Source of the DNA: Bacteroidota bacterium
Lineage (GTDB): Bacteria > Bacteroidota > Bacteroidia > 2-12-FULL-35-15
DNA: 43,036 nucleotides
Direction of reading: 5' to 3'
Assembly: GCA_023251805.1 (NCBI GenBank)
Contig: JAHEYB010000024.1
Coordinates: forward strand, 1 to 43,036
In this document: positions 21,874 through 43,036 of the stretch, piece after piece
Layout of the letters: every line of letters begins with the position of its first letter
Position numbering within the stretch: position 1 is the stretch's first letter
The notes under the pieces: model-generated
What the model was told of the DNA's origin: nothing
Seen by the model: the letters and a program-made list of their open reading frames with translations, nothing else
Databases searched by the model: none
Translations under genes and position numbers: made by a program

Positions 21874-21923
21874 TTTCGGTTAAGTTAAAAAGCTCAATCG
21901 TTAAATAAAAATTTATAACAGAA

Positions 21924-22358
21924 ATGAAAAAAGGAATTTTAAAATTAGTATTAGTTGTTGGTGGATTCATTACAATAAACAGCGCATCGGCTCAAATTGC
22001 AGATACAATTGCTACTCAATGTGCAAAGCACTTAGAAAATCAATTCATTTCTGATGGTCAGCAATACCGAGCTTTATTAATGAATGCAGACGAAACTGCA
22101 GAATTTCACACTACACTATATGGCGGTACACTTTATCGTATAGCTGCTTGTAGTGGCTTATCCGATGGAAATTTAATTTTCTCGGTGTATGATTCAGAAA
22201 GAAACTTACTTTTCACAAACAGCGAATTTAAAAATGCTCCTTTTTGGGATTTCAAAATCACAAACACCTTGGATTGTGTGATTGAAGCGAAATTGAGTGG
22301 AGGAGCTCAAGGTTCGGGAAGAGCCGTTTTATTAATTGGCTTTAAACAACAAAAATAA
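21924..22358 (+). CDS. Small secreted protein of unknown function
   Basis: 144 residues, with signal peptide MKKGILKLVLVVGGFITINSASAQ. The mature domain of about 120 residues looks beta-rich: FISDGQQYRALLMNADETAEFHTTLYGGTLYRIAACSG, then LIFSVYDSERNLLF and GSGRAVLLIGFKQQ. The pattern resembles a small beta-sandwich as found in lipid- or sugar-binding modules, but I cannot assign a family. It lies between the lipoprotein and the ABC transporter genes and is followed by a strong terminator. That position suggests it is made in excess over the transporter. Confidence 0.7.
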   Translation: MKKGILKLVLVVGGFITINSASAQIADTIATQCAKHLENQFISDGQQYRALLMNADETAEFHTTLYGGTLYRIAACSGLSDGNLIFSVYDSERNLLFTNSEFKNAPFWDFKITNTLDCVIEAKLSGGAQGSGRAVLLIGFKQQK

Positions 22359-22382
22359 TATCAAATATAACCTTATTCAAAA

Positions 22383-22417
22383 GGCATTAATTACTGCGGT
22401 ATTAATGCCTTTTTTTT
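22383..22417 (+). terminator. Terminator 25 bp before the ABC transporter start
   Basis: A perfect 9-bp stem (ggcattaat at 22383-22391 with attaatgcc at 22401-22409) has a 9-base loop and is followed by eight T residues. It ends just 25 bases before the ATG at 22443, so it acts either as the end of a two-gene transcript or as an attenuator for the transporter gene. Confidence 0.85.
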
Positions 22418-22442
22418 CAAAACTACTTAATTACATTTAACA

Positions 22443-25400
22443 ATGAGTGAAAGAATATTAAAAGCCCTGATGCAAATGTTTGCGATTATTGCAAGGGTTG
22501 ATGGCATTAATGACAATGGCCGATTAATCGTGCAATCGTTCTTGAAGCAACAATTAAATCAGGAATTAGTTGATCAATACCTTGCCATTTTTGATGAATT
22601 TTTAGAAGCTCACCATCAGGTTACAAAAAAGAAAGATGGTTCAGCAAAACGTACCTCACTTAACTCCGTTAAAGTTTTAAAAATTTGTACTCAAATCAAT
22701 AGCGAGCTTACGCAAGTACAAAAGGTGGTTGTGTTACTTCGTTTGATTGAATTTATTAATTCCAATACCGAAATTGCTGAACAAGAAATGGAATTCGTTA
22801 CAACCGTGGCGGAAACATTTAATATTGAAGATGACGAGTTTAAACGTTGTATGGAATTTGTGAGAGCAGGGTTGGATACTATTCCAGAATCGTCTCGTTT
22901 GTTGATTATCGATAATAAAACTAGTCATACTCTCAAAGAAACAAAACATATTTATGCTGAAGGGGTAACCGGACAAGCACGCGTACTTTGGATTCCGAGT
23001 GTGAACATGTATGCATTGTTATATTATGGCAAAAGCGATATTTTATTAAACGGACAGTTACTTACGCAAGGGAAAGTATTTATTCTTACACCCGGTTCAT
23101 CCTTACGGAGCTCAAAAGTAAAACCTGTTTATTATAGCGATATTTTAAGTTCGTTTATGAGTGATACCTCAAAAGCAAAAGTATCATTTGTAGTAAAAAA
23201 CTTAGAGTACAAATTTAAAGGTGGTAAACTTGGATTAAGAGATATTAATTTTAGCGAAGACTCGGGCAAGCTTATTGGAATCATGGGTGGTTCCGGAGCC
23301 GGAAAATCCACATTACTAAATGTGTTGAACGGAATGGAAATTCCAAGTGGCGGTTCTGTTAAAATCAATGGAATAAATATTCACTCTGAAAAAGAACAAA
23401 TAGAAGGGGTAATTGGTCACGTTTCGCAGGACGATTTACTTATTGAAGAGTTAACTGTTTTTCAAAATTTGTTTTATAACGCAAAACTTTGTTTTGGAAA
23501 TAAAACAGATGCTGTTGTAACTCAAATGGTAACAGACGTATTGACAAGCATAGGATTAATTGAAACACGCGATTTAAAAGTTGGAAGCCCCTTAGAAAAA
23601 ACCATTTCAGGTGGACAACGTAAACGCTTGAACATTGCATTGGAATTGATTCGTGAGCCATCCGTATTGTTTGTAGATGAACCTACTTCCGGTTTATCTT
23701 CACGCGATTCGGAGAATATTATGGACTTATTAAAAGAACTTGCCTTAAAGGGCAAATTGGTTTTTGTTGTAATCCATCAGCCTTCTTCCGATATTTTCAA
23801 AATGTTCGACAAGTTGATGATTTTAGATGTAGGCGGTTATCCAATTTATTACGGCAATCCTGTTGACTCTGTTATTTATTTCAAAACAGTGGTGAACCAT
23901 GTAAATAGTAATGAAAGTGAATGTATTGAATGTGGTAACGTAAACCCCGAACAGGTATTCAATATTATTGAGTCGAAAGTATTGGACGAATATGGTAACA
24001 TCACTCGCAACAGAAAAGTGTCGCCTTCGGAATGGAATTTACATTACAAGGATAAAATTGAAAAGACGATTGAAGAAGTTGAAAATATTACAGAAATTCC
24101 GGAAAGCACTTTTAAAATTCCGAATAAATTTAAACAATTCAAAGTATTCATCACCCGTGATGTATTATCTAAACTAACCAATACACAATACATTTCTATC
24201 AATATGCTGGAGGCGCCATTATTGGCTTTCATCCTAGCCTATTTCATTAAATTTGTGAACTTAGATTTATCCAACAAAGTGGGTTATACTTTTCGTGAAA
24301 ACGAAAACATTATTATTTACATGTTTATGGCAGTAGTTGTGTCTTTGTTTATTGGATTAACTGTTAGTGCAGAAGAAATTATTAGAGACAAAAAAATTCA
24401 AAAACGTGAGTCCTTTTTGAACCTGAGTAAAGGAAGCTATTTGTGGTCAAAAATTATTATTATGTTTACTTTGTCGGCCATACAAGCTATTTTGTTTGTG
24501 TTGGTAGGAAACTATGTATTGCAAATACAGGGCATGATTTTCCAATATTGGGTGTTATTATTTAGCACTTTTTGTTTTGCAAACATGTTGGGGTTAAATA
24601 TTTCTGCAAGTTTCAACTCAGCAGTTACCATTTACATCCTTATCCCAATTTTAATTATCCCTCAATTATTGTTTAGCGGTGTGATGGTGAAATTTGATAA
24701 ACTGAATCCAATTATCACTTCACAAAGTGTTGTTCCATTAGTTGGTGATATGATGGCTTCCAGATGGGCGTTTGAGGCTTTAGCAGTTAAGCAGTTTAAG
24801 GATAATAAATTTACAAAAAAGACTTACCGTTTTGATAAAGCGATACACATAGCTACATACAAAAAAGACTATTGGTTAACCGAAATGGCTAAAAAAATTG
24901 ATTTCTGTGAATCGAATTACAAAAAGCCCGAAAGCAGAAAAGAAGTGGAAGATGCCTTGAAAATGATTCAAAATGAAATCAGAAAAGAGCTGAAGACTCC
25001 TGGTAATGAAAAATTAATTTGCGGTGGTTTGGATAATTTAAACTTGACTTCATTTAGTCCAACTGTTGCAAACCAAGTACGTGACTTTACTAATAACACT
25101 TTAAGGACGGTGTATTTAAATAATTTCAAGCGTGCAACTACATTGAGAGAAAAAGAAGTAAGTGTAATGACCAAAGACACAGCTGCAAGAGCCCAGTACA
25201 TTAAAGACAAGAACGACTATGAAAATGAAAGTCTGCAAGACCTAGTAACAAACAGAAATACACCTTATCGTATTTTAGATTTAGATGGCGCATACGTTCA
25301 AAAAATTGATCCAATTTATTTAGACCCGGTTGATTCCGATTTGGGAAGAGCACATTTTTTCGCTCCACGTAAAAAATTCTTTGGAAAATACTATGATACT

Positions 25401-25535
25401 TATTCTGTAAATATTTGTGTAATATGGGGAATGTCTGTTGTTTTAGCCATTACACTTTATTTTGATTTATTAAAAAAATTGATCAATGGCTTGGAAATCC
25501 TATTCAGCAAGTTGAGTAGAAAAAAAGGTCGATAA
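22443..25535 (+). CDS. ABCG-type ABC transporter with TerB-like N-terminus
   Basis: 1030 residues, a fused ATPase-permease. The N-terminal 140 residues are helical and resemble TerB (FAIIARVDGINDNGRLIVQSFLKQQL..., IAEQEMEFVTTVAETFNIEDDEF). A beta-rich linker of about 80 residues follows. The ATPase has Walker A GGSGAGKST (about 282-290), signature SGGQRKRLNIA (about 390-400) and Walker B VLFVDEPTSGLSSRDS. The conserved HQPSSDIFKMFD is typical of the ABCG/White group. A membrane domain with five or six helices (about 580-760) follows. Then comes a long soluble insert (about 770-985) before a last helix at about 990-1012. The substrate is unknown. The permease layout, ATPase first, is as in eukaryotic ABCG half-transporters. 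Confidence 0.85.
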   Translation: MSERILKALMQMFAIIARVDGINDNGRLIVQSFLKQQLNQELVDQYLAIFDEFLEAHHQVTKKKDGSAKRTSLNSVKVLKICTQINSELTQVQKVVVLLRLIEFINSNTEIAEQEMEFVTTVAETFNIEDDEFKRCMEFVRAGLDTIPESSRLLIIDNKTSHTLKETKHIYAEGVTGQARVLWIPSVNMYALLYYGKSDILLNGQLLTQGKVFILTPGSSLRSSKVKPVYYSDILSSFMSDTSKAKVSFVVKNLEYKFKGGKLGLRDINFSEDSGKLIGIMGGSGAGKSTLLNVLNGMEIPSGGSVKINGINIHSEKEQIEGVIGHVSQDDLLIEELTVFQNLFYNAKLCFGNKTDAVVTQMVTDVLTSIGLIETRDLKVGSPLEKTISGGQRKRLNIALELIREPSVLFVDEPTSGLSSRDSENIMDLLKELALKGKLVFVVIHQPSSDIFKMFDKLMILDVGGYPIYYGNPVDSVIYFKTVVNHVNSNESECIECGNVNPEQVFNIIESKVLDEYGNITRNRKVSPSEWNLHYKDKIEKTIEEVENITEIPESTFKIPNKFKQFKVFITRDVLSKLTNTQYISINMLEAPLLAFILAYFIKFVNLDLSNKVGYTFRENENIIIYMFMAVVVSLFIGLTVSAEEIIRDKKIQKRESFLNLSKGSYLWSKIIIMFTLSAIQAILFVLVGNYVLQIQGMIFQYWVLLFSTFCFANMLGLNISASFNSAVTIYILIPILIIPQLLFSGVMVKFDKLNPIITSQSVVPLVGDMMASRWAFEALAVKQFKDNKFTKKTYRFDKAIHIATYKKDYWLTEMAKKIDFCESNYKKPESRKEVEDALKMIQNEIRKELKTPGNEKLICGGLDNLNLTSFSPTVANQVRDFTNNTLRTVYLNNFKRATTLREKEVSVMTKDTAARAQYIKDKNDYENESLQDLVTNRNTPYRILDLDGAYVQKIDPIYLDPVDSDLGRAHFFAPRKKFFGKYYDTYSVNICVIWGMSVVLAITLYFDLLKKLINGLEILFSKLSRKKGR

Positions 25536-27574: not shown

Positions 27575-27612
27575 AATAATAGAATAATTTATTTTTGTTG
27601 TCACAACTCCTT

Positions 27613-28158
27613 ATGGAGAGAAAAATTAAGTATACAGAAGAAGAATTGGTGTCTTTATTAAAAAATAAAGATGCTATTGCATACAATGTGTTGTACGACA
27701 ACTATTCTGCTTCTTTATATGGAATTATTTCAAGAATAATACCTGCAGAAGAAATTGCTCAAGATATTTTGCAGGATGTATTTGTAAAAATATGGAAGGC
27801 GATTGAACATTATGATAAGTCCAAGGGGCGATTATTCACTTGGATGTTAAACATTGCACGAAATTCGGCTATAGATTACTCTCGTTCCAAACAATTCAAG
27901 CTGGAAAATAAAATCCAAGACATCGATAATTCCGTTTATGAAGTAAATAAGCAGAAATCGAGTAGCTTTAATACCGATTTGATAGGGGTAAAAGAGGAGG
28001 TTATTAAATTAAAAGATGATTATCGTATTTTAATTGATTTGATTTATTTTAAAGGATTTACCCAAGAAGAAGCTGCCAAGGAGTTAAATATCCCTTTAGG
28101 AACAGTAAAAACAAGGGTAAGAGCGGCTATTATAGAACTTAGAAAAACATTGAAGTAA
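27613..28158 (+). CDS. ECF-type RNA polymerase sigma factor
   Basis: 181 residues from the ATG at 27613. Region 2 spans about 15-90 with AEEIAQDILQDVFVKIWKAI and RLFTWMLNIARNSAIDYSRSKQ. Region 4 spans about 130-181 with LIYFKGFTQEEAAKELNIPLGTVKTRVRAAIIELRK, a helix-turn-helix that contacts the -35 region. The linker between them is basic and glutamine rich. It directs RNA polymerase to a regulon controlled by the anti-sigma factor encoded one base downstream. It resembles sigma factors of the SigK/RskA type. The regulon cannot be read from this sequence. Confidence 0.93.
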   Translation: MERKIKYTEEELVSLLKNKDAIAYNVLYDNYSASLYGIISRIIPAEEIAQDILQDVFVKIWKAIEHYDKSKGRLFTWMLNIARNSAIDYSRSKQFKLENKIQDIDNSVYEVNKQKSSSFNTDLIGVKEEVIKLKDDYRILIDLIYFKGFTQEEAAKELNIPLGTVKTRVRAAIIELRKTLK

Positions 28159-28159
28159 A

Positions 28160-28939
28160 TTGACTGTTGAGGAATACATATCATCCGGCATTATTGAACG
28201 CTACATAGTGGGAGAGCTTTCTGAAAAGGAAAGAATCGATGTGGAAGCAATGGCTATGCAGTATCCCGAAGTGAAAGCCGAGATAGAGTTGACAGAAGCT
28301 ACACTCATGAATTTTGCATCAAAAACTCCTCCTGTTCGCTTAAAACAAAAAATTGCAGGGCGACTGGATATAAATACTGCAAAAGTGATTCCCTTAAACG
28401 AAAAGAAAAGTAGTTCATTGATGTGGCTGGTTGCTGCCTCTTTATTATTACTTGTTGGTAGTTCCATTTACAATGTCATTTTAACAACTAAATTATCTGA
28501 AACCGAAGATCAGTTGGCCGTAATAAACTCCCAAAATCAAAAATTTGTTAGTGATTTTGATGCTCAGTCGAAGTCTTATGGAGAAATGGCTCAGCAAATG
28601 GCTATTTTGATGAATCCCAACAATAACAAAGTAATGCTAAAAGGAATGGATATTGCTCCAACAGCATTGGCAATTGTTTATTGGAACAAACAAAATAAGG
28701 ATGTTTATATTAATGTAAATGCTTTACCATCAGCGGCAGATGGTATGCAATATCAACTTTGGGCGATTGTAGATGGAAAACCTGTAGATATTGGAATGCT
28801 GGATATGAACCCCGATTTACCACCTCTTCACAAAATGAAATCCATTAACGGGGCTCAGGCATTTGCAGTTACATTGGAGAAAAAAGGTGGAAGCCCCACT
28901 CCTAACATGAATGCGATGTATTTGATGGGGAATGTTTAA
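28160..28939 (+). CDS. RskA-type transmembrane anti-sigma factor
   Basis: 259 residues starting at TTG 28160, one base after the sigma stop. No other start is in frame until an internal ATG at about residue 30, which would cut into the conserved N-terminal helix (TVEEYISSGIIERYIVGELSEKERIDVEAMA). One transmembrane helix (about 93-110) separates the cytoplasmic sigma-binding part from the periplasmic RskA-like domain. That domain contains ALAIVYWNKQNKDVYINVNALP, YQLWAIVDGKPVDIGML and FAVTLEKKGGSPTPN. It should hold the sigma factor at the membrane until a signal triggers release. The tight spacing implies translational coupling. Confidence 0.88.
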   Translation: MTVEEYISSGIIERYIVGELSEKERIDVEAMAMQYPEVKAEIELTEATLMNFASKTPPVRLKQKIAGRLDINTAKVIPLNEKKSSSLMWLVAASLLLLVGSSIYNVILTTKLSETEDQLAVINSQNQKFVSDFDAQSKSYGEMAQQMAILMNPNNNKVMLKGMDIAPTALAIVYWNKQNKDVYINVNALPSAADGMQYQLWAIVDGKPVDIGMLDMNPDLPPLHKMKSINGAQAFAVTLEKKGGSPTPNMNAMYLMGNV

Positions 28940-32275: not shown

Positions 32276-32452
32276 TCTCATTATATGAAAAATAGGATGA
32301 TACATTTAATAAGTGGCAATTATTGGGAATAAGTGGTCAATAAAGAAAAATAGAAAGACGGTTATGGTATGTAAAAGTGAATTATATTTTTTTAAAGCTT
32401 AGAATAATATAAAGAATATTATCTTAGCCATAGATAAAAAACAGTGTTAGAA

Positions 32453-35425
32453 ATGAAATTCGCACATAAAATTTCATTATTCCTTTTTATTTCAGTTAGC
32501 TTATTTTCAACAGGACAGATAATTCCATTTATCTCCGAAAAGAGTTTAAGCCCGAGTGAAAAATATTCTGTTCAGGTATGGACTACAGAAAATGGGCTAC
32601 CACAAAATTCCATTAATGACATCATACAAACAAAAGATGGATACTTATGGTTAGCTACATTTGATGGATTGGTTCAATTCGATGGGATTAAATTTAAAAT
32701 ATTTCGTTCCTCTACAACTCCTGAACTTAAAACCAACGGAATAAAAAAATTATTTGTAGATAAATTAGACCGCCTGTGGATAATATCTTCAGATGGAAGG
32801 CTTTATTCATATTACAAAAACAAATTTCACTCTTATGATCTTCCTGAAAAAACATTAATTTATAGTAACATGATTACGAATTGGACACAAACCTCCATTC
32901 TTATAGCATGTGAAAACAATAAAATATATTCAATTGATAACAATGTCATCTCAGAATTTCGAGTACCGCTTTACATCCAACACTTAAATACTATTATTTC
33001 TAAATATGATGACCAACTATATATAGGAGCAAGTAATGGTTTATTCTCATTTAGTGGCAACATCTGGTATACTTTTCCTGAATTTAAAAATCAAATTATT
33101 TCCACATTCTATCGTTCTCCAAATAATGATATACTAACAGATATCGGAACCTATCTATTGGTAGTACATCCCAGGAACACTGAATTATTGAATTTACCAA
33201 TTTCTTTAAAAGAAATTGGCAATCACGGAATTGGATTCAATCAATTACAGCAAATGGTCATTTTATCTGAAAAAGGTTTATATACAATTGTAGAAAACAA
33301 AACAATACATACTTCGATTGAAAATGGACTTTCATCAAACGGAATTAGTTCGGTTTATGCTGACAAACAAAATAATTTTTGGGTAGGAACTTCTAATGGT
33401 GGTCTAAATAAATTGAAAGAAAAACTTTTTCATACCCTTTCCAAAGAAAATGGGATGAATGATGATGGAATAACCGGTTTGCTTCAAACTTCCAAAGGAA
33501 ATATTTTGTTAGCTAATAATTGTTCTGGTTTGAGTAATTATCTAAATAAAAAATTCGTTCCTAGTTTTCAGTCTGTTGAAGGTGATTGCTTATGGAGTTT
33601 AATGGAAGATAAAAATAAAAATATTTGGGTTGGTTCCTATGGAGATGGAATCGCTGTATTTAAAGAAAATAATGAGATAAAGCACTATCGCATCTCGGAA
33701 GGACTTTCATCAAATGTAGTTTTTGCTTTGTACACCGACTCAAAAAATATGATCTGGTGCGGAACTGACAAAGGTTTGTGTTTTTTGGAGAATGATAAAT
33801 TTGTACAACTAGATATTTCCTTTAAAAATACAATCACCTATATTTTTGAAGATCGCAACAAGCAGCTTTTTTTATGCTCCGATATTGGACTTGCTACCAT
33901 TCGTAATCAAAAAATTGTATTGTTACAAAACGGGGAATTGGGCAATACAAATCTGCGTTACATATATGAAGATAAAGAAGGCGTATTATGGCTTGGAACA
34001 CATGGTAGTGGGCTCATTCGGTTTAAAAATGGCAGCACATTTTCCTACACTTCAAAAAATGCTGCACTTGATAATAATGTTTGGAGCATTACCGAAGATA
34101 GCAAAGGTAATTTTTGGCTGCCTTCCAATTCTGGCATGTATGTTATTGAACGAAAGGAATTGAATGAATTTGCTGACGGAATAATTAACAATTTAAGTCC
34201 GATTTATTTATCAAAAGAAGACGGATTAAAAAGCAGTGAATTTAATGGTGGATTTCAGCCAACGGTTTTGCAAAACGAGATGCATGAATTATGGTTTCCT
34301 ACCGTAAAAGGTGTTGCTATTGCAAACCCTGCAAATTTAAAGCCTGTTGATTATTTCCCTCAGATAGTAATAGAAAAAATAGCGCTTGATGATGAACTTA
34401 TAACGCTTACTGATTCAATACTTACTTCGGTATCTTCTAACAGTTTGTTAATTTCTTTTAGTGCACCGTCTTTTATCAACCCATCAAAGTTAAATTTTCA
34501 ATACAAAATAGAAGGGATAGACAATTCATGGGTAGATATTGGTTCTGCCAGAGAATTAAAATTGAATTCAATCCCAAGCGGAAATCATATTTTACGCTTG
34601 AAAGTTGCCGGTAATATTAACAATAAAGAAACCAGCATCCTTTTGATAAAGCCACTACCAATATGGAAAGAGACAAAATTTATTACTGCATTAAGTTTTA
34701 TTTTTTTACTGATTGTGCTTATTGCAACAGTTGGAATAATTGGTGTGATAAGAAAAAGAGAAAGAAAAAAAACGCTTCTCAACAAGCAATATGCAAATAT
34801 TGAATTAAAGGCCCTGCAAGCTCAAATGAATCCGCATTTTATTTTTAATTGTCTGAATTCGATTCAACATTTTATTATTGTGAATGATGAAATTTCAGCC
34901 AATAAATACCTAAGTAAATTTTCAATGCTTATGCGTAAATTTCTTGAGCACTCAAAATTTAATACAATATCTCTTCATGAAGAGATTGAGCTTATCCGTT
35001 TATACATTGAGTTAGAAAATCTGCGCTTTAAGGAAGGCTTTGATTTGACTATGGAAATAGACCCTGCTATAGATAAGTACAATATTGAAATTCCAAGTAT
35101 GCTTTTTCACCCTTTTGTTGAAAATGCTATTAATCATGGTTTACTTAATCTTGATAGAAAAGGGAATTTGAAAATTATTTTTCGATTGGAAAAGCAATGC
35201 CTGCTCGGCATTATTGAAGATGATGGCATTGGTCGAAAAAAATCTTCCGAATTGCGTTCAGAGACAAGGAAAGATCATCAATCACGAGGAATGGAAATAA
35301 CCAAAGACCGCATTTCTGTTCTGAATAAAATGGAAAACACAAACATTGAAGTGGAGATAATTGACAAGACAAATGACACATATGGTTCCTCCGGGACACT
35401 AGTAATTATTAAAATTCCTATATAA
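32453..35425 (+). CDS. Beta-propeller sensor histidine kinase, LytS/His_kinase type
   Basis: 990 residues from the ATG at 32453; the upstream GTG at 32444 adds three residues before the signal peptide MKFAHKISLFLFISVSLFSTGQ. Periplasmic two-component-regulator propeller repeats run from about 35 to 620 (e.g. WTTENGLPQNSINDIIQTKDGYLWLATFDGL, WVGTSNGGLNKLKE, LWLGTHGSGLIRFKNG). A Y_Y_Y-type beta domain follows (about 640-735), then one transmembrane helix (about 743-766). The cytoplasmic kinase has LQAQMNPHFIFNCLNSIQHF (His795) and HPFVENAINHGL. It is of the LytS class, without a classical H-box. It is paired with the LytTR regulator two bases downstream. Confidence 0.93.
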   Translation: MKFAHKISLFLFISVSLFSTGQIIPFISEKSLSPSEKYSVQVWTTENGLPQNSINDIIQTKDGYLWLATFDGLVQFDGIKFKIFRSSTTPELKTNGIKKLFVDKLDRLWIISSDGRLYSYYKNKFHSYDLPEKTLIYSNMITNWTQTSILIACENNKIYSIDNNVISEFRVPLYIQHLNTIISKYDDQLYIGASNGLFSFSGNIWYTFPEFKNQIISTFYRSPNNDILTDIGTYLLVVHPRNTELLNLPISLKEIGNHGIGFNQLQQMVILSEKGLYTIVENKTIHTSIENGLSSNGISSVYADKQNNFWVGTSNGGLNKLKEKLFHTLSKENGMNDDGITGLLQTSKGNILLANNCSGLSNYLNKKFVPSFQSVEGDCLWSLMEDKNKNIWVGSYGDGIAVFKENNEIKHYRISEGLSSNVVFALYTDSKNMIWCGTDKGLCFLENDKFVQLDISFKNTITYIFEDRNKQLFLCSDIGLATIRNQKIVLLQNGELGNTNLRYIYEDKEGVLWLGTHGSGLIRFKNGSTFSYTSKNAALDNNVWSITEDSKGNFWLPSNSGMYVIERKELNEFADGIINNLSPIYLSKEDGLKSSEFNGGFQPTVLQNEMHELWFPTVKGVAIANPANLKPVDYFPQIVIEKIALDDELITLTDSILTSVSSNSLLISFSAPSFINPSKLNFQYKIEGIDNSWVDIGSARELKLNSIPSGNHILRLKVAGNINNKETSILLIKPLPIWKETKFITALSFIFLLIVLIATVGIIGVIRKRERKKTLLNKQYANIELKALQAQMNPHFIFNCLNSIQHFIIVNDEISANKYLSKFSMLMRKFLEHSKFNTISLHEEIELIRLYIELENLRFKEGFDLTMEIDPAIDKYNIEIPSMLFHPFVENAINHGLLNLDRKGNLKIIFRLEKQCLLGIIEDDGIGRKKSSELRSETRKDHQSRGMEITKDRISVLNKMENTNIEVEIIDKTNDTYGSSGTLVIIKIPI

Positions 35426-35427
35426 AA

Positions 35428-36183
35428 ATGATACGAGCAATTATTGTGGACGATGAAGCATTGAGCAAAACAGTTCTAAAGAATCTCATCCTTAAGTATT
35501 GTCCCGAAATTTCACTTTTGGGAGAAGCTTCAAATATTACTGAAGCAAAAAAATTGATAGAAGAACTGAATCCTGATCTTGTATTTTTAGATATTGAAAT
35601 GCCGGGCGGATCAGGGTTTGAATTGTTAGAAAAACTAATTGATAATCCTTCATTAATGGTGATTTTTACAACCGCTTATGACCAATATGCGATAAAAGCT
35701 TTTAAGTTCAACGCACTGGATTATTTGCTGAAACCAATCAATATAAGTGAGTTAATTGCTGCTGTAGCAAAAATTTCCAATCCTGTTCACAAAAAAACAA
35801 TGCGTTCTTCACTAAAGCATTTCATGGATAGTCCCGGCAATTCGGGTATTTCAAAAAATAACAAAGTAGCTTTGCCAACTCAGGAGGGGCTTGTTTTTAT
35901 TGACATAGCTAATATTATCAGGTGCGAAGCGGATGGAAAATATACATATTGTTTCATTTCAGAAGGCAAAGCATTGCACTCAACTAGAAATTTAAAAGAT
36001 TTTGAAGAACAACTGACTCAGTTTGGTTTCTGCAGAATTCACCATGCTCATTTGATTAACCTGAATCATATAAAAACCTATGTGAAAGGCAATGGTGGTT
36101 ATGTATTGATGAATAATAATGATACGGTAACTGTATCAAAACGAAAGAAGGAAGATTTTCTAAAGCACTTAAATAAGATTTAA
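35428..36183 (+). CDS. LytTR-family response regulator
   Basis: 251 residues. The receiver domain (1-120) has acidic Asp8/Asp9, phospho-acceptor Asp55 in VFLDIEMPG, Thr81 and Lys102 in LLKPI. The LytTR DNA-binding domain occupies about 145-250 (LVFIDIANIIRCEADGKYTYCFISEGK, FCRIHHAHLINLNHIKTYVKGNGGYVLMNN, VSKRKKEDFLKHL). The start lies 2 bp after the stop of the propeller kinase, so the two form one operon and a cognate pair. Possible targets include the surface genes around it, but no LytTR site was identified. A strong terminator follows. Confidence 0.95.
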   Translation: MIRAIIVDDEALSKTVLKNLILKYCPEISLLGEASNITEAKKLIEELNPDLVFLDIEMPGGSGFELLEKLIDNPSLMVIFTTAYDQYAIKAFKFNALDYLLKPINISELIAAVAKISNPVHKKTMRSSLKHFMDSPGNSGISKNNKVALPTQEGLVFIDIANIIRCEADGKYTYCFISEGKALHSTRNLKDFEEQLTQFGFCRIHHAHLINLNHIKTYVKGNGGYVLMNNNDTVTVSKRKKEDFLKHLNKI

Positions 36184-36192
36184 GTTAAATAA

Positions 36193-36232
36193 AAAGCGAG
36201 ATATGATGCATAAATGCATCATATCTCGCTTT
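36193..36232. terminator. Strong bidirectional terminator
   Basis: A perfect 18-bp stem (36193-36210 with 36215-36232; arm aaagcgagatatgatgca) around a 4-base loop, with A/T flanks. It separates the LytTR regulator gene from the convergent siaC-type gene. Confidence 0.92.
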
Positions 36233-36256: not shown

Positions 36257-36637
36257 TTATTCAGCTACCTGAACCATTTTAAATGGCACGTTGATAATTG
36301 CTTGGTAATCTTCACCCGCTTCTAGCATATCCTCATCATCTTCTTCATAATACCAATTGATTACTACTGCGCTTCCACCTTTGTTGATCGCTTCCAATTT
36401 TTTAAATACATCTAAAATGCATTTAGATGAACTTGTATTAAAATACTCTAGTTGAATATTTACGTTGGTTGCAGACTGAGGTTTTCCCGCATATTTCTCT
36501 AACCAATCCACTAATGGTTTGTAAAACTCGATAGAGTTTTCAGGGATTGAACGACCTTTAATTTCTAAAAAGCCTTTTCCTGTATCAAAAGTGATAGTAG
36601 GGGTTTTTGGTGTTCCTTCAATTGAAATTGTTTCCAT
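36257..36637 (-). CDS. siaC: SiaC-family partner protein (DUF1987)
   Basis: 126 residues. The start ETISIEGTPKTPTITFDTGKGFLEIKGRSIPENSIEFYKPL is characteristic of the family. The motif EYFNTSSSK places a threonine at residue 68, the position phosphorylated in Pseudomonas aeruginosa SiaC. In that system SiaB phosphorylates SiaC, the PP2C phosphatase SiaA reverses this, and unphosphorylated SiaC activates the diguanylate cyclase SiaD. It lies 10 bp after the SiaB-type kinase gene, in one operon. No cyclase is found here, so its output partner in this organism is unknown. The C-terminal EEDDEDMLEAGEDY is acidic. Confidence 0.9.
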   Translation of the reverse strand: METISIEGTPKTPTITFDTGKGFLEIKGRSIPENSIEFYKPLVDWLEKYAGKPQSATNVNIQLEYFNTSSSKCILDVFKKLEAINKGGSAVVINWYYEEDDEDMLEAGEDYQAIINVPFKMVQVAE

Positions 36638-36647
36638 AATCTTATTT

Positions 36648-37193
36648 TTATTGTGATATTTTAATATTTAAACTGAAAAATGAAAATTTGTCGTCCACCG
36701 GTGAAAAATTGAAATTCAATTTCTCTCCTGTTTTTCGTGCAATGTCTATCATTCCTAATCCACCTCCACCTTTCAATGACATTTCACCATTATTTAAAAC
36801 TGCTTTGTAATATTCTTTTAATTCTTCTTTAGATAATAAATTAATGTCTTCCAATCGTTTTTTCAAACTTTCAACATTTTCTTTTTTGATGTAATTACCG
36901 GTAACAATATTGTATTGATTATCCAATTTGCCAATCATAAAAATAGCGGAACGTATAACATCATTTTGTTCGGGTGCTACTTCATCCATATGATGATAAA
37001 GATTTTGCAGACACTCAACTAGTACATTGTAAACTTTCTTTTTAATCTTTGGTTCTTCCTGCAAATTATCCAATTTGGATTCCATAATCTGCAAGATGGA
37101 GGTAAGTAATTCAGAAGTGATATCACCTTTAAAAGAGAGCATAATATTATTACGCTCCATTTTATCATAAAAATCGTAAATATCTAACATCAT
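36648..37193 (-). CDS. siaB: SiaB-family protein kinase (GHKL-type)
   Basis: 181 residues, starting MMLDIYDFYDKMERNNIMLSFKGDITSELL. A GHKL-like ATP site is supported by VYNVLVECLQNLYHH (N-box region, about 54-68) and by the glycine-rich SLKGGGGLGMIDIARKTG (about 139-156). The family acts as a small cytoplasmic Ser/Thr kinase for SiaC, comparable to anti-sigma-factor kinases. It is the first gene of a two-gene operon with siaC and has a strong promoter of its own 50 bp upstream. Either of two adjacent ATG codons can be the start. Confidence 0.88.
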   Translation of the reverse strand: MMLDIYDFYDKMERNNIMLSFKGDITSELLTSILQIMESKLDNLQEEPKIKKKVYNVLVECLQNLYHHMDEVAPEQNDVIRSAIFMIGKLDNQYNIVTGNYIKKENVESLKKRLEDINLLSKEELKEYYKAVLNNGEMSLKGGGGLGMIDIARKTGEKLNFNFSPVDDKFSFFSLNIKISQ

Positions 37194-37244
37194 AAAACAC
37201 TAAGTTAAATCGATAAAGCTGATAATTCTGATTTGTTAATTAAG

Positions 37245-37274
37245 CAAATATATAAATAAGTTTAATTAATCAAA
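37245..37274 (-). promoter_or_regulatory. Promoter of the siaB-siaC operon
   Basis: On the minus strand: -33 TTTG (37271-37274), an 18-bp spacer, and -7 TATATTTG (37245-37252), an exact consensus match. Expected start is near 37238, giving a 45-base leader. Confidence 0.8.
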
Positions 37275-37326
37275 CAGCAAACACTAATTTTTTACTCCTT
37301 ATTAATTTAACCATTCATTCACATCC

Positions 37327-37350
37327 AAAACCCCAGCAAACAAGGGTTTT
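37327..37350 (-). terminator. Possible terminator of the lipoprotein gene
   Basis: aaaaccc (37327-37333) pairs with gggtttt (37344-37350), 11 bp after the lipoprotein stop. The stem is short and A/T-flanked on the minus strand. Confidence 0.5.
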
Positions 37351-37361
37351 AACAATGTGCA

Positions 37362-38186
37362 TCAATTCATTGTAAAAGCAAAAGTATTACCATTTATAGT
37401 AAGTGTTGCCTGATCATCACAAATTCCCGCTCCGTAATCAACTGTGCGAGTTGCTTTGCCTTCAGGTGTCAAATCAATTTTACCCGACTGAATCCAAGTA
37501 CAAGACATTGCTTTGATTACCGGAGATGTTACATTCACCGTATAATTTTTTCCTTCACGGGTTTTACCTACCGCATTTCCAGTAAACTGGTAAACATCAT
37601 TGGTTAACAACGTGTCTCCCATACCTGCAGTTTGCGTCATTGTTCTGGTACAAGCCCACTCTAAGTTCCAGCTGGATGCAATACATTTTCCGCCAATAAT
37701 ATTATTTGTAAATGAATAAGCTGAGTTACGGATAATCATAATGCTATCACAAGCATATTGTACAAAATTTGCTGCACTGGCACCTTTTACATAATAGTTA
37801 ATCAATTTAACTGTAACCGTACAACCCGCAGTATCCCATGAACGATCATATGTTGCAACTACTTGCCCCTTACGTGTTTTACCATCAATAGGGTCAACTG
37901 TTCCTGTTGTTCCATAATCCAAGGTCATAGTTACCGGAAAACCATCTAACGTATCAGCAGGATTGATAATAACCATTGGATAAGTAGACATCATAGATTT
38001 TACACCTTGTTCCTTAATGGCATATCCATTAATAATTCCCATTCTACCAGTGAATTCGCCCTCACAAACGCTATTATCAGTTGCTGACTGTGTTTCTGTA
38101 TCTGGCTCCTCTTTTTTACAAGAATTAAATGTTAATGCAAGTACTGCAGAAACAAATAAAAGTAATGAATATAGAATACGTTTCAT
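37362..38186 (-). CDS. Lipoprotein of unknown function in the Sia-like block
   Basis: 274 residues. The signal peptide ends in the lipobox TFNSC (Cys near 23), followed by KKEEPDTETQSATDNSVCEGEF. The mature part is beta-rich, with several 'MTLDYGTTGTVDPIDGKTRKGQVVATY' type strands and repeated Cys residues. The motif 'DYGTTG..D.IDGKTRKG.V...Y' and later 'VGKTREGKNYTVNVT' and 'RTVDYGAGICDDQATLTINGN' recur within the protein. The repeat suggests duplicated domains. Similar small beta-lipoproteins occur in Bacteroidota without assigned function. It lies between the propeller phosphatase and siaB genes, with its own promoter and terminator, so a functional link is only suggested. Confidence 0.8.
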   Translation of the reverse strand: MKRILYSLLLFVSAVLALTFNSCKKEEPDTETQSATDNSVCEGEFTGRMGIINGYAIKEQGVKSMMSTYPMVIINPADTLDGFPVTMTLDYGTTGTVDPIDGKTRKGQVVATYDRSWDTAGCTVTVKLINYYVKGASAANFVQYACDSIMIIRNSAYSFTNNIIGGKCIASSWNLEWACTRTMTQTAGMGDTLLTNDVYQFTGNAVGKTREGKNYTVNVTSPVIKAMSCTWIQSGKIDLTPEGKATRTVDYGAGICDDQATLTINGNTFAFTMN

Positions 38187-38229
38187 GGTATATAGATTTT
38201 AAGTTTTTTGCTAAATTTTATCCTAGCAT

Positions 38230-38260
38230 CAAATATAAGAATATTTTACAATTTGTCAAA
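38230..38260 (-). promoter_or_regulatory. Promoter of the lipoprotein gene
   Basis: On the minus strand: -33 TTTG (38257-38260), a 19-bp spacer, and -7 TATATTTG (38230-38237). Expected start is near 38223, a 37-base leader before the ATG at 38186. Confidence 0.78.
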
Positions 38261-38286
38261 AAATTGACGAAAAAGCCCTTCTTCCC

Positions 38287-41200
38287 TTAAAATCGGATGC
38301 CGATTACTAAAATATCATCAATTTGCTGATAACCACCCCTCCAAGTTTCAAAGGTTTGATCCAGCGTTTTACATTGCTCTTCCATGCTCTGTGATTGCAT
38401 CTCCAACATCAATTCATTGAATCGTTTTACCATGAATTTTTTGCCTTTTTCTCCACCAAACTGATCGGCATATCCATCTGAGGCCATATAAATGGTATCT
38501 CCTTTATTGATTTTAATGTTATGAGCAGTGAACTTCCGGTCGGCATCCAATTGTGAGCCACCAATAGGGTTTTTATCCGCCTCTATTTTATCAAATTTTT
38601 GATTGTTTACAATAAACAAAGGACGATAAGCTCCTGCATATTGCAACTCATTATTTTTTGTATCAATGCAACAAATGGCCACATCCATTCCATCGCTTGT
38701 ATCCACTACGTTTGTTCCTTGTTTTAAAGCTGCCTGCACACCGCGATGCAAAGCATTCAATATTTCATCGGGTTGGGTAATACCATTTTCACTGATGATT
38801 TGATTCAACAAATTATGCCCTATCATACTCATAAAAGCTCCGGGAACACCATGACCCGTACAATCCACTGCTGCAATTATTTTTTTGCCATCTTTTACCC
38901 CAAACCAATAAAAATCACCACTAACAATATCTTTTGGCTTATACAAAATAAAAGACTCAGGGAAATATTTAAAAATTTGTTCCAAAGGAGGCAATATTGC
39001 CAACTGAATTCGCTTTGCATACTGAATACTACTGGTAATGTCTTTGTTTTTTTGAGCCAGCTCCTGCGTACGCTCTTCCACTTTTTCTTCCAAAATTTTA
39101 TTTTCTCGCTTGATAGAGCTTGTACGGTATTTAACAAAACCCCAGAAACCACCAATCACAATAAATATACAAAGTGCATAAAACCATTTTGTGCGCCAAA
39201 ATGGAGGATTAATACGAATGTGAAGTATTACGCCTTCGTTATTCCAAGTTCCATCGTTATTAGCTCCACGCACTTTCAACACATAATCACCTCCGCTTAG
39301 TTCGGTATAACTGGCATAACGTTGTGTGCTGGGTGGCGACCAATCCTCATCTACTCCTTCGAGCATGTAAGAATATTTATTTTTCCCCGGCATTTGATAA
39401 TCCAAGGCCACAAAATCGAAAGAAAAGAAATTTTGTTTATAGGTCAACTCTAAATATCTTTTATCGTAAATCAATGTATCTAAAAATATTTCGGTACCAA
39501 ATCGTTTGTAGGAAATTAAATGCACTTGAGGAATGTTAGCATTGTCCTCAATTTTGTCGGGATGAAACGTATTAAAACCATTTACTCCTCCTAAAAATAT
39601 TTCTCCGGTTTTGGATTGATGATATGCCCCTTGATTAAATTCTAATCCTTGTAATCCATCATTTACATCATAATTTCTAAAAGCAGCACCATTTTCGTTT
39701 TTAATTAGGGCATTATATTTTGAAACTCCTTTATTGGTACTCATCCATAAATTGCCTTTGTTATCCGGCAAAATGCAATAAATAAAATCGTTGGGTAAAC
39801 CATCTTTTTCGAAATACGCTTCAAATTTTCCTGTTTTTGCATCCAACTTATTTAATCCGTTTGATGTACCAAACCACATATTTCCTTGTGGGTCTTCATA
39901 CGCACAATTCACCGCATTTGAACTAATGCTATTTGCTTTTTCATCACGCGTGTAAATCCTAAAAACATTTGATTCCTCATTATACCTAATCACTCCGCCA
40001 CCATCGGTAGCAATCCACATGTTTTTTTTGCTGTCTTGATAAATGTTGTAAATATTGTCAATACTCAATCCGTTTTCACTTGTATAATGACTGCTGAATT
40101 TTTTAATTTTTTTATCATATACAAAAACTCCTGCACCATAAGTTCCTACCCATATTTTTCCATCATCTGCTTGAAAAATGGAAACAATTGTAGCTGCATT
40201 AACAGGTTTAAATTCAGGGTAAGAAGTAATTTTTTTTGTTTTTTTATCATAGGAATTTAAGCCACCACCCCAAGTTCCAACCCAAATCAATCCTTCCTTA
40301 TCTTGATAAAGCGACAAAATTGAATTGTTTGAAGCCGTTGATAACTCATGGTAATGCTGAAACTTATCTGCATCACGGTCGATACTTGTCAAACCACCTC
40401 TTCGCGTTCCTACCCATAATAATCCATCACTATCTTCTAACAAAGAAAGCACTTCACTGCTTTTTAAACTGTTTTCAAAATCAGATGTTTTTTTATAAAA
40501 CTTAAATTTACTGGATGCCCGGAAATAAGCATTCACGCCACCGCCTTCGGTACCAATCCAAACCGAACCTACTTTGTCGTGATAAATACATTTTATTTGA
40601 TTGCTGGCAATTCCGGCAGGATTTTTTTCATCATACGAAATCCGTCTGAACCTGCCCGTTTTTTTGTTATATAAATTTATTCCGTTACCATAAGTTGCTA
40701 TCCATAAAAATCCATTGGCATCTTCATTGATGCTCATGATTTGATCGTTACTTAAAGAATTTACATCGGTTTCTTTGTTGCGAATGTTTTTAATGAATTG
40801 CCCCGAGTTAGGATCAAAAATTTGTATTCCCTCTCCAAATGTTCCAATCCAAAACATTCCATCTTTGTCTTCATAAATAGTACGAATCAAGGCAATGCTT
40901 TCATAAAGCAATTCACCTTTATCATTCAATTGATTATAGCTTTTGAATTCCCCCGTTTTTTTATCAAAAGAATTTAATCCGCCACCATAAGTACCTACCC
41001 ATAACTTTCCATCAGATGCTTCTAATAAGCACCAAGCATTATTATTGGATATGCTGTTCGACTTTTTGCTATCGTTGAGATAACGTGTAAACTTTTTTGT
41101 TTTTTGATTGTAAGAATTTAATCCATCATCCGTTCCAATCCACAACAATCCTTCTTTATCCTCCAAAATGGATTTTACATTGTTATTACTCAAACTATTT

Positions 41201-41592
41201 TTATTCCCCGAAATGCCTATGTGATGTGTAAATTTTCCGGTGCTTAAATTATACACGTCAAAACCACCTCCATTAGTACCAATAACCAATTCGCCACTTT
41301 TAGTTTCGTACAGCGCATTGATAAAATTATTAGAAATGGTATTGGAATCAAGCTGACTATTTTTAAAAACGGTGATACTGTATCCATCGTATTTGTTAAG
41401 TCCATCCTGGGTTCCAAACCACATAAAACCTCTGCTGTCTTGGAGTACACAATTTACCACTCCCATGGACAAGCCTTGCTCTGAAGAAATATGACTGAAT
41501 TTAAGCTCTTGAGATTTACCGGAAATGGTAAAACCAAAAAACAGGGAAGTAACAAGTAAGAATCTTAAATATATGGAGTGAACTCTATTCAA
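38287..41592 (-). CDS. Beta-propeller sensor fused to SpoIIE/PP2C phosphatase
   Basis: 1101 residues. The signal peptide (about 1-28) is followed by about 12-14 two-component-regulator propeller repeats (about 33-690, e.g. FMWFGTQDGLNKYDGYSIT, LWVGTYGGGLNSFDKKTG, MWIATDGGGVIRYNEES). A Y_Y_Y domain (about 710-790), one transmembrane helix (about 798-818) and a coiled coil (about 822-850, EEKVEERTQELAQKNKDI) come next. The C-terminal SpoIIE-type PP2C phosphatase (about 880-1100) starts YKPKDIVSGDFYW and has the metal-binding AVDCTGHGVPGAFMSMIGHNLL and DGMDVAICCID. This is the likely SiaA-like phosphatase, with an extracytoplasmic sensor in place of HAMP. It ends DDILVIGIRF. Confidence 0.93.
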   Translation of the reverse strand: MNRVHSIYLRFLLVTSLFFGFTISGKSQELKFSHISSEQGLSMGVVNCVLQDSRGFMWFGTQDGLNKYDGYSITVFKNSQLDSNTISNNFINALYETKSGELVIGTNGGGFDVYNLSTGKFTHHIGISGNKNSLSNNNVKSILEDKEGLLWIGTDDGLNSYNQKTKKFTRYLNDSKKSNSISNNNAWCLLEASDGKLWVGTYGGGLNSFDKKTGEFKSYNQLNDKGELLYESIALIRTIYEDKDGMFWIGTFGEGIQIFDPNSGQFIKNIRNKETDVNSLSNDQIMSINEDANGFLWIATYGNGINLYNKKTGRFRRISYDEKNPAGIASNQIKCIYHDKVGSVWIGTEGGGVNAYFRASSKFKFYKKTSDFENSLKSSEVLSLLEDSDGLLWVGTRRGGLTSIDRDADKFQHYHELSTASNNSILSLYQDKEGLIWVGTWGGGLNSYDKKTKKITSYPEFKPVNAATIVSIFQADDGKIWVGTYGAGVFVYDKKIKKFSSHYTSENGLSIDNIYNIYQDSKKNMWIATDGGGVIRYNEESNVFRIYTRDEKANSISSNAVNCAYEDPQGNMWFGTSNGLNKLDAKTGKFEAYFEKDGLPNDFIYCILPDNKGNLWMSTNKGVSKYNALIKNENGAAFRNYDVNDGLQGLEFNQGAYHQSKTGEIFLGGVNGFNTFHPDKIEDNANIPQVHLISYKRFGTEIFLDTLIYDKRYLELTYKQNFFSFDFVALDYQMPGKNKYSYMLEGVDEDWSPPSTQRYASYTELSGGDYVLKVRGANNDGTWNNEGVILHIRINPPFWRTKWFYALCIFIVIGGFWGFVKYRTSSIKRENKILEEKVEERTQELAQKNKDITSSIQYAKRIQLAILPPLEQIFKYFPESFILYKPKDIVSGDFYWFGVKDGKKIIAAVDCTGHGVPGAFMSMIGHNLLNQIISENGITQPDEILNALHRGVQAALKQGTNVVDTSDGMDVAICCIDTKNNELQYAGAYRPLFIVNNQKFDKIEADKNPIGGSQLDADRKFTAHNIKINKGDTIYMASDGYADQFGGEKGKKFMVKRFNELMLEMQSQSMEEQCKTLDQTFETWRGGYQQIDDILVIGIRF

Positions 41593-41624
41593 AATTTTTT
41601 ATTTGGAAGTAAATATAGGAAATT

Positions 41625-41926
41625 TTCGTCATGCTGAGCGGAGTCGAAGCATACATTATTAGAAGCAATATACACTCGTTTTTTCATCTATCTACCCTTC
41701 GACTTCGCTCAGGGTGACGCTCCGAAAAACAGTATATTATATTCTCATATCAATAACTAAAATTACTTCGTCATGCTGAGCGGAGTCGAAGCATACATTA
41801 TTAGAAGCAATATACACTCGTTTTTTCATCTATCTACCCTTCGATATGTCTGCTTCAACGCAGAATGCTCAGGGTGACGCTCCGAAAAACAGTATATTAT
41901 ATTCTTATACCAATAACTAAAATATC
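41625..41926. repeat. Tandem duplication that includes the tail of a phosphatase gene
   Basis: Copy 1 is 41625-41766 (142 bp); copy 2 is 41767-41926 (160 bp) and carries 18 extra bases near 41845. They are otherwise nearly identical. Each holds a 24-bp repeat pair forming a large hairpin (41629-41652 and 41695-41718 in copy 1). Copy 2 contains the last codons and stop of the phosphatase at 41897. Copy 1 contains a decayed version of the same tail, readable as ILVIDMRI plus stop. The rest of 41593-41896 holds no gene; a -7-like TATATTTA for the propeller phosphatase gene lies at 41610-41617 on the minus strand. Confidence 0.8.
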
Positions 41927-43036
41927 ATCAACCTGGTCTAAAGAACCTTTCCATTGCTCGAAATGATAATTGAGAATATGCTTTTGTTCTTCCATCGTAT
42001 TATCTTGCATTTCAATCAACAACTCTTGGAATTTTTTGTACTTGAATTTTTTTCCATTCGGACCGCCAAATTGGTCGGCATAACCATCCGTAAATAAATA
42101 CACCGAATCACCTTTCTCCAATTTTATCACATGATTAGTGAACACTTTCACATCTGCATTTTCGGTATCCGCACCAATTGCCAGCTTATCGGGTTTTACT
42201 TCTATAAATTGCTTTTGGCGGACAATGTATAATGGATTATTTGCTCCGGCATATTGCAATTCCAGTTTTTCGAAATTGATGGCACACAAGGCCATATCCA
42301 TTCCATCTTTTATAGAGTTTAATGTCTTTGTAATTTCTTTATTTAAAAATCCCAATGCATCAGCAGGAGAATTTACTGCAGCTGCTGTAGTAGTTTGATT
42401 CAAAATGGTACTTCCAATAATGCTCATTAAAGCTCCGGGAACACCATGGCCGGTGCAATCAACAGCCGCCATCACTGCAATATTTTCCATTGGCTTTCCA
42501 TCTTGCGGAGTTGTTTTCACAGAGGCATACCAATAAAAATCACCACTCACAATATCTTTCGGCTTAAATAAAATAAAGTAATCTTTTAAAACTGTATCTA
42601 TTTTTTCAGAAGAAGGCAAAATCGCTTGTTGAATACGTTGAGCATAATTTATACTATCTCGAATGTCCTTACTTTTTTCTTCAATGATTTCGTTTTTTAT
42701 TTCCAATTGATTATTGGATTCAGCTAAAGCCAAGCGAGAAATAATTTCTTTTTTTGTAAGGTTGGTGCGAGTGTGAATCAACAAAATGGTAAACAAGGCA
42801 ACCGACAAGGTTAACATTCCACCATTGATTAAAATATCTCCCACTTTTAAATGTCCTAACAACCAAAAGAAAATGACATTTGCTAAAAGTGAAAACACCA
42901 CCACCATCACCGAATAAAACGGGCGCCACAAAACAAACATTCCTGCTCCAATAAATAAAGCGATATACGCAAAAGTATGTTTCTGCAATTCATCCACATT
43001 CATTACACTAAACATGTATGCATTTTGAATGGAGAT
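41897..43036 (-). CDS. Membrane-anchored SpoIIE/PP2C phosphatase (5' end beyond window)
   Basis: At least 379 residues. The frame is open to the window edge (…ISIQNAYMFSVMN), so the real start is probably outside; an internal ATG at 43015 is unlikely to be the start. Three hydrophobic segments (AYIALFIGAGMFVLW, VMVVVFSLLANVIFFWLLG, GGMLTLSVALFTILLI) precede a coiled coil (LALAESNNQLEIKNEIIEEKS) and the SpoIIE domain: FILFKPKDIVSGDFYWYAS, MAAVDCTGHGVPGALMSIIG, DGMDMALCAINFE, SVYLFTDGYADQFGG, and the end DDILVIGIRI. It is close to the preceding phosphatase in this domain but has a different N-terminus. This could be the SiaA-type membrane phosphatase that controls SiaC. Confidence 0.9.
   Translation of the reverse strand: MSIQNAYMFSVMNVDELQKHTFAYIALFIGAGMFVLWRPFYSVMVVVFSLLANVIFFWLLGHLKVGDILINGGMLTLSVALFTILLIHTRTNLTKKEIISRLALAESNNQLEIKNEIIEEKSKDIRDSINYAQRIQQAILPSSEKIDTVLKDYFILFKPKDIVSGDFYWYASVKTTPQDGKPMENIAVMAAVDCTGHGVPGALMSIIGSTILNQTTTAAAVNSPADALGFLNKEITKTLNSIKDGMDMALCAINFEKLELQYAGANNPLYIVRQKQFIEVKPDKLAIGADTENADVKVFTNHVIKLEKGDSVYLFTDGYADQFGGPNGKKFKYKKFQELLIEMQDNTMEEQKHILNYHFEQWKGSLDQVDDILVIGIRI

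Follow-up and report, generated by a model that had tools for sequence, protein, structure and literature searches.

In Pseudomonas aeruginosa, the diguanylate cyclase SiaD is bound by SiaC only when the latter is unphosphorylated (PMC8457831). What, then, would SiaC act on in a bacterium whose siaC gene comes without a cyclase? This question is raised by a 43,036-nt contig (JAHEYB010000024.1 of assembly GCA_023251805.1; analysed over its full length and hereafter called the window) from an uncultured Bacteroidota bacterium, the assembly of which spans 2.98 Mb and is ~80% complete. Near one end of the window, a first-pass annotation had described an operon of a SiaB-type kinase and a SiaC-type protein carrying Thr68 in an NTSSSK motif as in Pseudomonas, accompanied on the same strand by two SpoIIE/PP2C phosphatases, one of propeller and one of membrane type, and by no diguanylate cyclase. 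Our analysis bears out this gene set and suggests an output for it: judged from sequence, the system most likely works as a SiaABC switch that acts on an ATP-binding cassette (ABC) exporter encoded in the same window. The switch locus comprises the following features (aa, amino acids).

36192-36232, no strand assigned: near-perfect hairpin with a T-run, flanked by the 3' ends of siaC and of a LytTR gene, which converge on it (read directly in the sequence)
36257-36637, minus strand: SiaC-family regulatory phosphoprotein of 126 aa with T68 in NTSSSK (PF09345, 154 bits; aligns without gaps to the SiaC structures of P. aeruginosa)
36648-37193, minus strand: SiaB-family (GHKL-type) protein kinase, 181 aa (NF038262, over cut-off; PF19788; alignment to 6kko_A)
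37362-38186, minus strand: c4, conserved lipoprotein, 274 aa, in the interval between phosphatase 1 and SiaB (lipobox Cys23, operon position, AlphaFold2 model)
38287-41592, minus strand: sensor phosphatase 1, 1101 aa, with periplasmic Reg_prop beta-propellers, Y_Y_Y, one transmembrane helix and SpoIIE/PP2C (Pfam, SiaA model, 6k4e alignment, motifs)
41897-43036, minus strand: sensor phosphatase 2, SpoIIE/PP2C with multiple transmembrane segments, at least 379 aa, 5' end lost at the contig end (PF07228, 71 bits; SiaA model, 179 bits)

Since SiaC residues 3-121 align without gaps to P. aeruginosa SiaC in structures 6kko and 6k4f, Thr68 falls in the very column of the phosphorylated P. aeruginosa Thr68. 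SiaB scores 147 bits against PF19788 and 171 bits against the NCBIfam model SiaB_fam_kinase (cut-off 85), and comparison with the solved P. aeruginosa SiaB (6kko_A) revealed both the N-box (E..QN) and the glycine-rich box (GxGLG..DIARK) to be kept, so the ATP-binding residues, whose loss the first-pass annotation had named as a refutation, are in place. Phosphatase 1, which besides its propellers has a transmembrane segment, aligns with the SiaA phosphatase domain of known structure (6k4e) at an E-value of 5e-33 and matches the NCBIfam SiaA model over its C-terminal part, while metal-site motifs are present in both phosphatases. The truncated phosphatase 2 retains at least two transmembrane segments; its full-length orthologues measure ~467 aa and have three to four. 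The NCBIfam equivalog cut-offs lie above the scores obtained here (SiaA, 210 of 700 bits; SiaB, 96 of 225; SiaC, 104 of 150). Because of the Thr68 alignment, the SiaB motifs, the SiaA-type PP2C match with its metal-site motifs, the 10-bp gap between siaB and siaC, and the hairpin behind siaC, we regard the presence of SiaABC partner-switch genes in this locus—SiaC with Thr68, SiaB with its ATP-site motifs and a SiaA-type PP2C—as confirmed at the level of sequence. The locus thus resembles the P. aeruginosa SiaABCD system (PMC7647112, PMC8457831) in its SiaB-family kinase, in Thr68 within NTSS, in the SiaA-type PP2C and in the order phosphatase-kinase-SiaC. It differs in having no SiaD or other GGDEF gene, in sensing through a Reg_prop/Y_Y_Y propeller plus lipoprotein, and in its candidate output, an ABC transporter. 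We do not class it as a SiaABCD member, because the defining cyclase is absent.

How deep does this absence go? No GGDEF domain was found in the whole assembly. For comparison we drew on draft assemblies, namely the genomes of 59 relatives and 148 nearly complete genomes sampled from across the phylum, together with 60 loci from the relatives and 80 more from named metagenome-assembled genomes. SiaC occurs in 48 of the 59 relatives and SiaB likewise in 48; their presence differs in just two genomes, both incomplete. GGDEF domains were detected in only two of the 59, where they belong to proteins of 1000 aa or more encoded away from SiaC, and 46 of the 48 SiaC-positive relatives, many of them 99-100% complete, lack them. 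Across the phylum sample, 80 of the 148 genomes carry GGDEF, just one of these 80 within the window's class. The earlier statement that c-di-GMP (cyclic diguanylate) signalling is rare in Bacteroidota therefore holds for the class and fails for the phylum as sampled here. These counts also bear on the idea of an ordinary SiaABCD system whose SiaD-type GGDEF gene sits in the unassembled part of the genome. The incompleteness of the assembly would leave room for such a gene, and SiaC is paired with GGDEF in Pseudomonas and in genomes of the phylum outside the class; set against the cyclase-free relatives and the two in which GGDEF lies in large proteins away from SiaC, however, we consider a hidden SiaD highly improbable.

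The genomes outside the class provide a contrast group. Four of them in the phylum sample are SiaC-positive; all four have GGDEF genes and all lack the transporter, C7, described below. In two (loci L286 and L287), SiaABCD-type operons carry PP2C (~1187 aa), SiaB and SiaC in the same order as the window but, unlike it, continue with a GGDEF gene (254-278 aa) after SiaC. The L287 GGDEF protein, taken whole, matches SiaD (7e6g) among other GGDEF proteins, while its stalk alone did not recover SiaD in a search of the PDB. In the SiaC tree, P. aeruginosa SiaC groups with the out-of-class sequences, on a long branch. This contrast supports an exchange of output between the lineages.

What, then, could have taken the place of the cyclase? 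The first-pass annotation had expected an output other than c-di-GMP, perhaps secretion, gliding or another regulator. The first part stands, and our evidence points to a TerB/FHA-like ABCG transporter encoded within an operon that had been passed over.

20977-21873, plus strand: c3, 298 aa, exported and lipoprotein-like, transporter operon (conserved order c3-c11-C7)
21924-22358, plus strand: c11, 144 aa, exported, transporter operon (conserved order c3-c11-C7)
22443-25535, plus strand: C7, 1030 aa, candidate output, with TerB (~1-140), FHA-fold part (~150-235), ABC ATPase and ABC-2 membrane domain, ABCG type (ABC_tran, ABC2_membrane, weak TerB, ABCG1 match, AlphaFold2 model, SiaC linkage)

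C7 is built as an ABCG-type half transporter: a single polypeptide carries the ABC ATPase and then the ABC-2 membrane domain, and 245 extra N-terminal residues precede them. Pfam assigned ABC_tran (PF00005, 107 bits), PF01061 (63 bits) and, weakly, TerB, and the structural match is to ABCG1. The AlphaFold2 model of the N-terminal region (predicted local distance difference test score, pLDDT, 87) has a TerB-like section made of helices and a second one folded as a beta-sandwich. For the latter (~150-235), FHA domains account for most of the top 50 Foldseek matches at probabilities of up to 0.99; Pfam returned no FHA match. Family searches gave no match for c3 or c11. The c3-c11-C7 order (here 20977-25535) is conserved and recurs beside SiaC across loci. 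A resemblance of the conserved C7 TerB helix (I-C-x-x-I-N) to the SiaD stalk motif (I81 S82 ... Y85 Q86) was given no weight; the residues may belong to the TerB core. As for gliding, nothing pointed to it: comparison of the locus with Por, Gld and Spr components returned only a match of the propeller to PorZ, which at 139 of 260 bits stays below cut-off, and a match to GldA of the generic ATPase kind.

Four genomic signs led us to propose that SiaC docks on C7: co-occurrence, adjacency, matched paralogues and a fusion. Both proteins are encoded in 45 of the 59 relatives and neither in nine, with five discordant genomes, three of them incomplete (Fisher p = 9e-7). When one genome was taken per other family, 13 had both, one had each alone and eight had neither (p = 2e-4). 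As to position, 52 distinct C7 genes lie no more than eight genes from a SiaC gene. In most lineages the two are convergent, with a gap of typically ~40-160 bp, yet separate modules exist in which they run co-directionally, the genus having SiaC-c3-C7 and two other families PP2C-SiaB-SiaC-C7-c3. Within one such module, in genome G016 (locus L124), C7 and SiaC are both nearest to their counterparts in locus L148, from another family, rather than to the usual copies found within their genus. Directly upstream of this C7 (L124:8862-9962) lies a gene for a 367-aa protein in which a TerB/FHA-like module is joined to a SiaC domain. It was the sole non-C7 open reading frame above threshold when a profile of the C7 N-terminus was run over the loci (E = 4e-4), and the reverse search of 119 whole genomes returned, besides itself, only frames of C7 size (~1030 aa).

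Several observations weigh against a functional link. The fusion was found once, in a draft assembly. In the window, 10.7 kb and seven genes separate C7 from SiaC, and many SiaC paralogues, including two of the three in the source genome, have no adjoining C7. One relative (G057) has SiaC without C7, and another (G056) the reverse. The FHA matches of C7 are weak in E-value (0.03-0.4), and in an alignment read by eye the canonical Arg and Ser of the phosphothreonine pocket are not evident, only the NG motif being clear. Moreover, because the convergent SiaC-C7 pair of Bacteroidales sits in a wider conserved block with a methyltransferase gene, the two genes may in part be neighbours by inheritance of that block. 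Taken to its end, this argument makes C7 a bystander kept with SiaC solely by inherited order and a shared range of taxa, and SiaC would act on another, unlinked protein. The unrelated methyltransferase gene next to SiaB in 18 loci of that block speaks for such an account, as do several lineages with SiaBC and no C7 inside 10 kb; it leaves unexplained the independent co-directional modules, the cross-family paralogue pairs, the near-identical presence and absence, and the domain fusion, and we judge it rather unlikely. In a tree of SiaC alone, built on few columns, the C7-linked sequences do not form one clade (23 changes, compared with 43.5 in shuffles).

On balance we lean, with moderate confidence, towards a SiaABC-type partner switch in which free SiaC docks on the TerB/FHA-fold module of C7 and sets its activity. 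In such a switch, sensor phosphatases (Reg_prop/Y_Y_Y or multi-transmembrane types, and up to 33 more in the genome) would take the phosphate off SiaC Thr68, the propeller sensor in the periplasm probably being aided by lipoprotein c4, and SiaB would re-phosphorylate the same residue. Unphosphorylated SiaC would dock on the cytoplasmic TerB/FHA-fold module and set the transporter, of which c3 and c11 may be exported partners. What the sequences show is the genes, their conservation, the lack of GGDEF and the genomic linkage of SiaC to C7; the phosphorylation and dephosphorylation of Thr68, the binding of SiaC to C7, the sense in which C7 is controlled (on or off) and its cargo are what we infer here. 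It is also possible, though less favoured because canonical pocket residues are not evident, that the FHA part binds phospho-SiaC instead. On the broader proposal we are evenly divided: that SiaABC of Bacteroidia has exchanged its output, with SiaC gating an ABCG exporter of the TerB/FHA-like kind and sensor phosphatases, tens per genome, feeding into few SiaC proteins, so that transport would be under post-translational control by many inputs and without a second messenger.

The proposed docking switch has partial precedents. Rv1747 of Mycobacterium tuberculosis, an FHA-ABCG transporter co-encoded with the kinase PknF (PMC5549992, PMC3908365), likewise combines an ABC exporter, an N-terminal FHA regulatory part and a link to Ser/Thr phosphorylation; C7 adds TerB, its FHA pocket is non-canonical, and a distinct GHKL kinase together with a STAS-like protein would exert control, rather than a eukaryotic-type kinase. 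In HsbA-HsbD and BgrR, PP2C/STAS switches on diguanylate cyclases (PMC8457831), a phosphatase/kinase pair similarly governs a small STAS-like protein, which in turn docks on an effector, whereas here the SiaC family replaces STAS and the effector is not a cyclase. SiaC-family proteins have been proposed to modulate adjacent proteins generally (eLife structure paper, PMC8457831). Our search of the open-access literature found SiaD as the only SiaC output, and no report of SiaC in Bacteroidota or of a SiaC-regulated transporter. Should SiaC indeed act on C7, the family would gain a second, unrelated output class and SiaC would become a docking switch of general use; C7, for its part, would be one of the rare ABC exporters beyond Mycobacterium that a reversible Thr switch controls.

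Where would the signals come from? The suggestion of two phosphatases for one kinase describes the locus and not the genome: the assembly encodes 35 SpoIIE phosphatase domains, a pool missing from the first-pass annotation, against three SiaC and two SiaB. Several of these domains stand in tandem clusters (for example on contigs C49, C29, C27, C33 and C34). A motif survey revealed the SI.YA..IQ-type linker of SiaA-like phosphatases in most of them, and the linker is therefore no distinguishing mark of the operon's two phosphatases. Among the relatives, SpoIIE domains number 1-47 (median 23) per genome with SiaC and 0-8 (median 1) without (Mann-Whitney p = 9e-7; p = 1e-4 with one genome per other family), and they correlate with the number of SiaC genes (rho = 0.70); counts near 45 may be lower bounds. 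This excess is consistent with numerous sensors acting through a small number of SiaC switches. If so, it would give a function to the large, unexplained set of sensor PP2C proteins in uncultured Bacteroidota (up to at least ~47 per genome). The same imbalance, 35 to 3, and the phosphatase genes adjoining SiaC in many loci could instead suggest that SiaB and SiaC act back on the phosphatases or their kinase alone, with no separate effector. As this would leave the C7 linkage and the fusion unexplained, it strikes us as very improbable.

The lipoprotein gene between phosphatase 1 and SiaB, also absent from the first-pass annotation, is the fifth component of the set. Its product c4 matched no Pfam or NCBIfam family, and its AlphaFold2 model (pLDDT 88), a beta-rich fold, found no counterpart in the PDB; the lipobox Cys23 is invariant and the operon position is kept in 30 loci. 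The neighbourhood, whose conservation in relatives the first-pass annotation had made decisive, is indeed retained: the order phosphatase (~467 aa), phosphatase (~1100 aa), lipoprotein, SiaB, SiaC recurs genus-wide and partly in other families across the 60 loci. Among the 80 further loci, the lipoprotein immediately precedes SiaB in 30, with a PP2C gene ahead of it in 23. The PP2C-lipoprotein-SiaB-SiaC set is not chance clustering; dozens of loci repeat the order. Other neighbours occur as well. Immediately before SiaB in the 18 Bacteroidales loci (for example L209:7996-9165) stands a gene assigned by eye to the THUMP/RlmL-like methyltransferases; it belongs to an old block that also holds SiaBC and C7. 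Loci L097, L112, L118 and L120, from a single sub-branch of the genus, have era- and der-like GTPase genes (again assigned by eye) next to SiaBC and lack the phosphatase and lipoprotein genes.

Could the switch instead govern transcription? A gene pair for a Reg_prop histidine kinase and a LytTR response regulator (32444-36183) converges on siaC, the hairpin being a likely terminator common to siaC and the LytTR gene, and an extracytoplasmic function (ECF) sigma factor is followed by an RskA-type anti-sigma factor at 27595-28939. Both pairs lie within 10 kb, and classical partner switches control sigma factors. The kinase/LytTR pair, however, adjoins SiaC in few genomes of the genus only (L095, L096, L100) and does not recur in other families; we dropped it as an output because it is not conserved. 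The sigma/anti-sigma pair is likewise not kept and does not recur in other families. A transcriptional output through either pair thus appears improbable.

The SiaB-SiaC pair itself varies across loci. In ten of them (L125, L126, L127, L129, L132, L139, L140, L147, L148, L149), tandem SiaB-SiaB fusions of 364-431 aa, with two kinase domains per chain, lie directly upstream of SiaC. The closest of the 80 loci from metagenome-assembled genomes, in 'Bacteroidota bacterium F1-120-MAGs045', encodes a SiaC 100% identical to that of the window. A SiaBC pair on a contig labelled Candidatus Saccharibacteria (L170, CAJCJB010000134.1) nests among Bacteroidota sequences, the label probably being a binning error.

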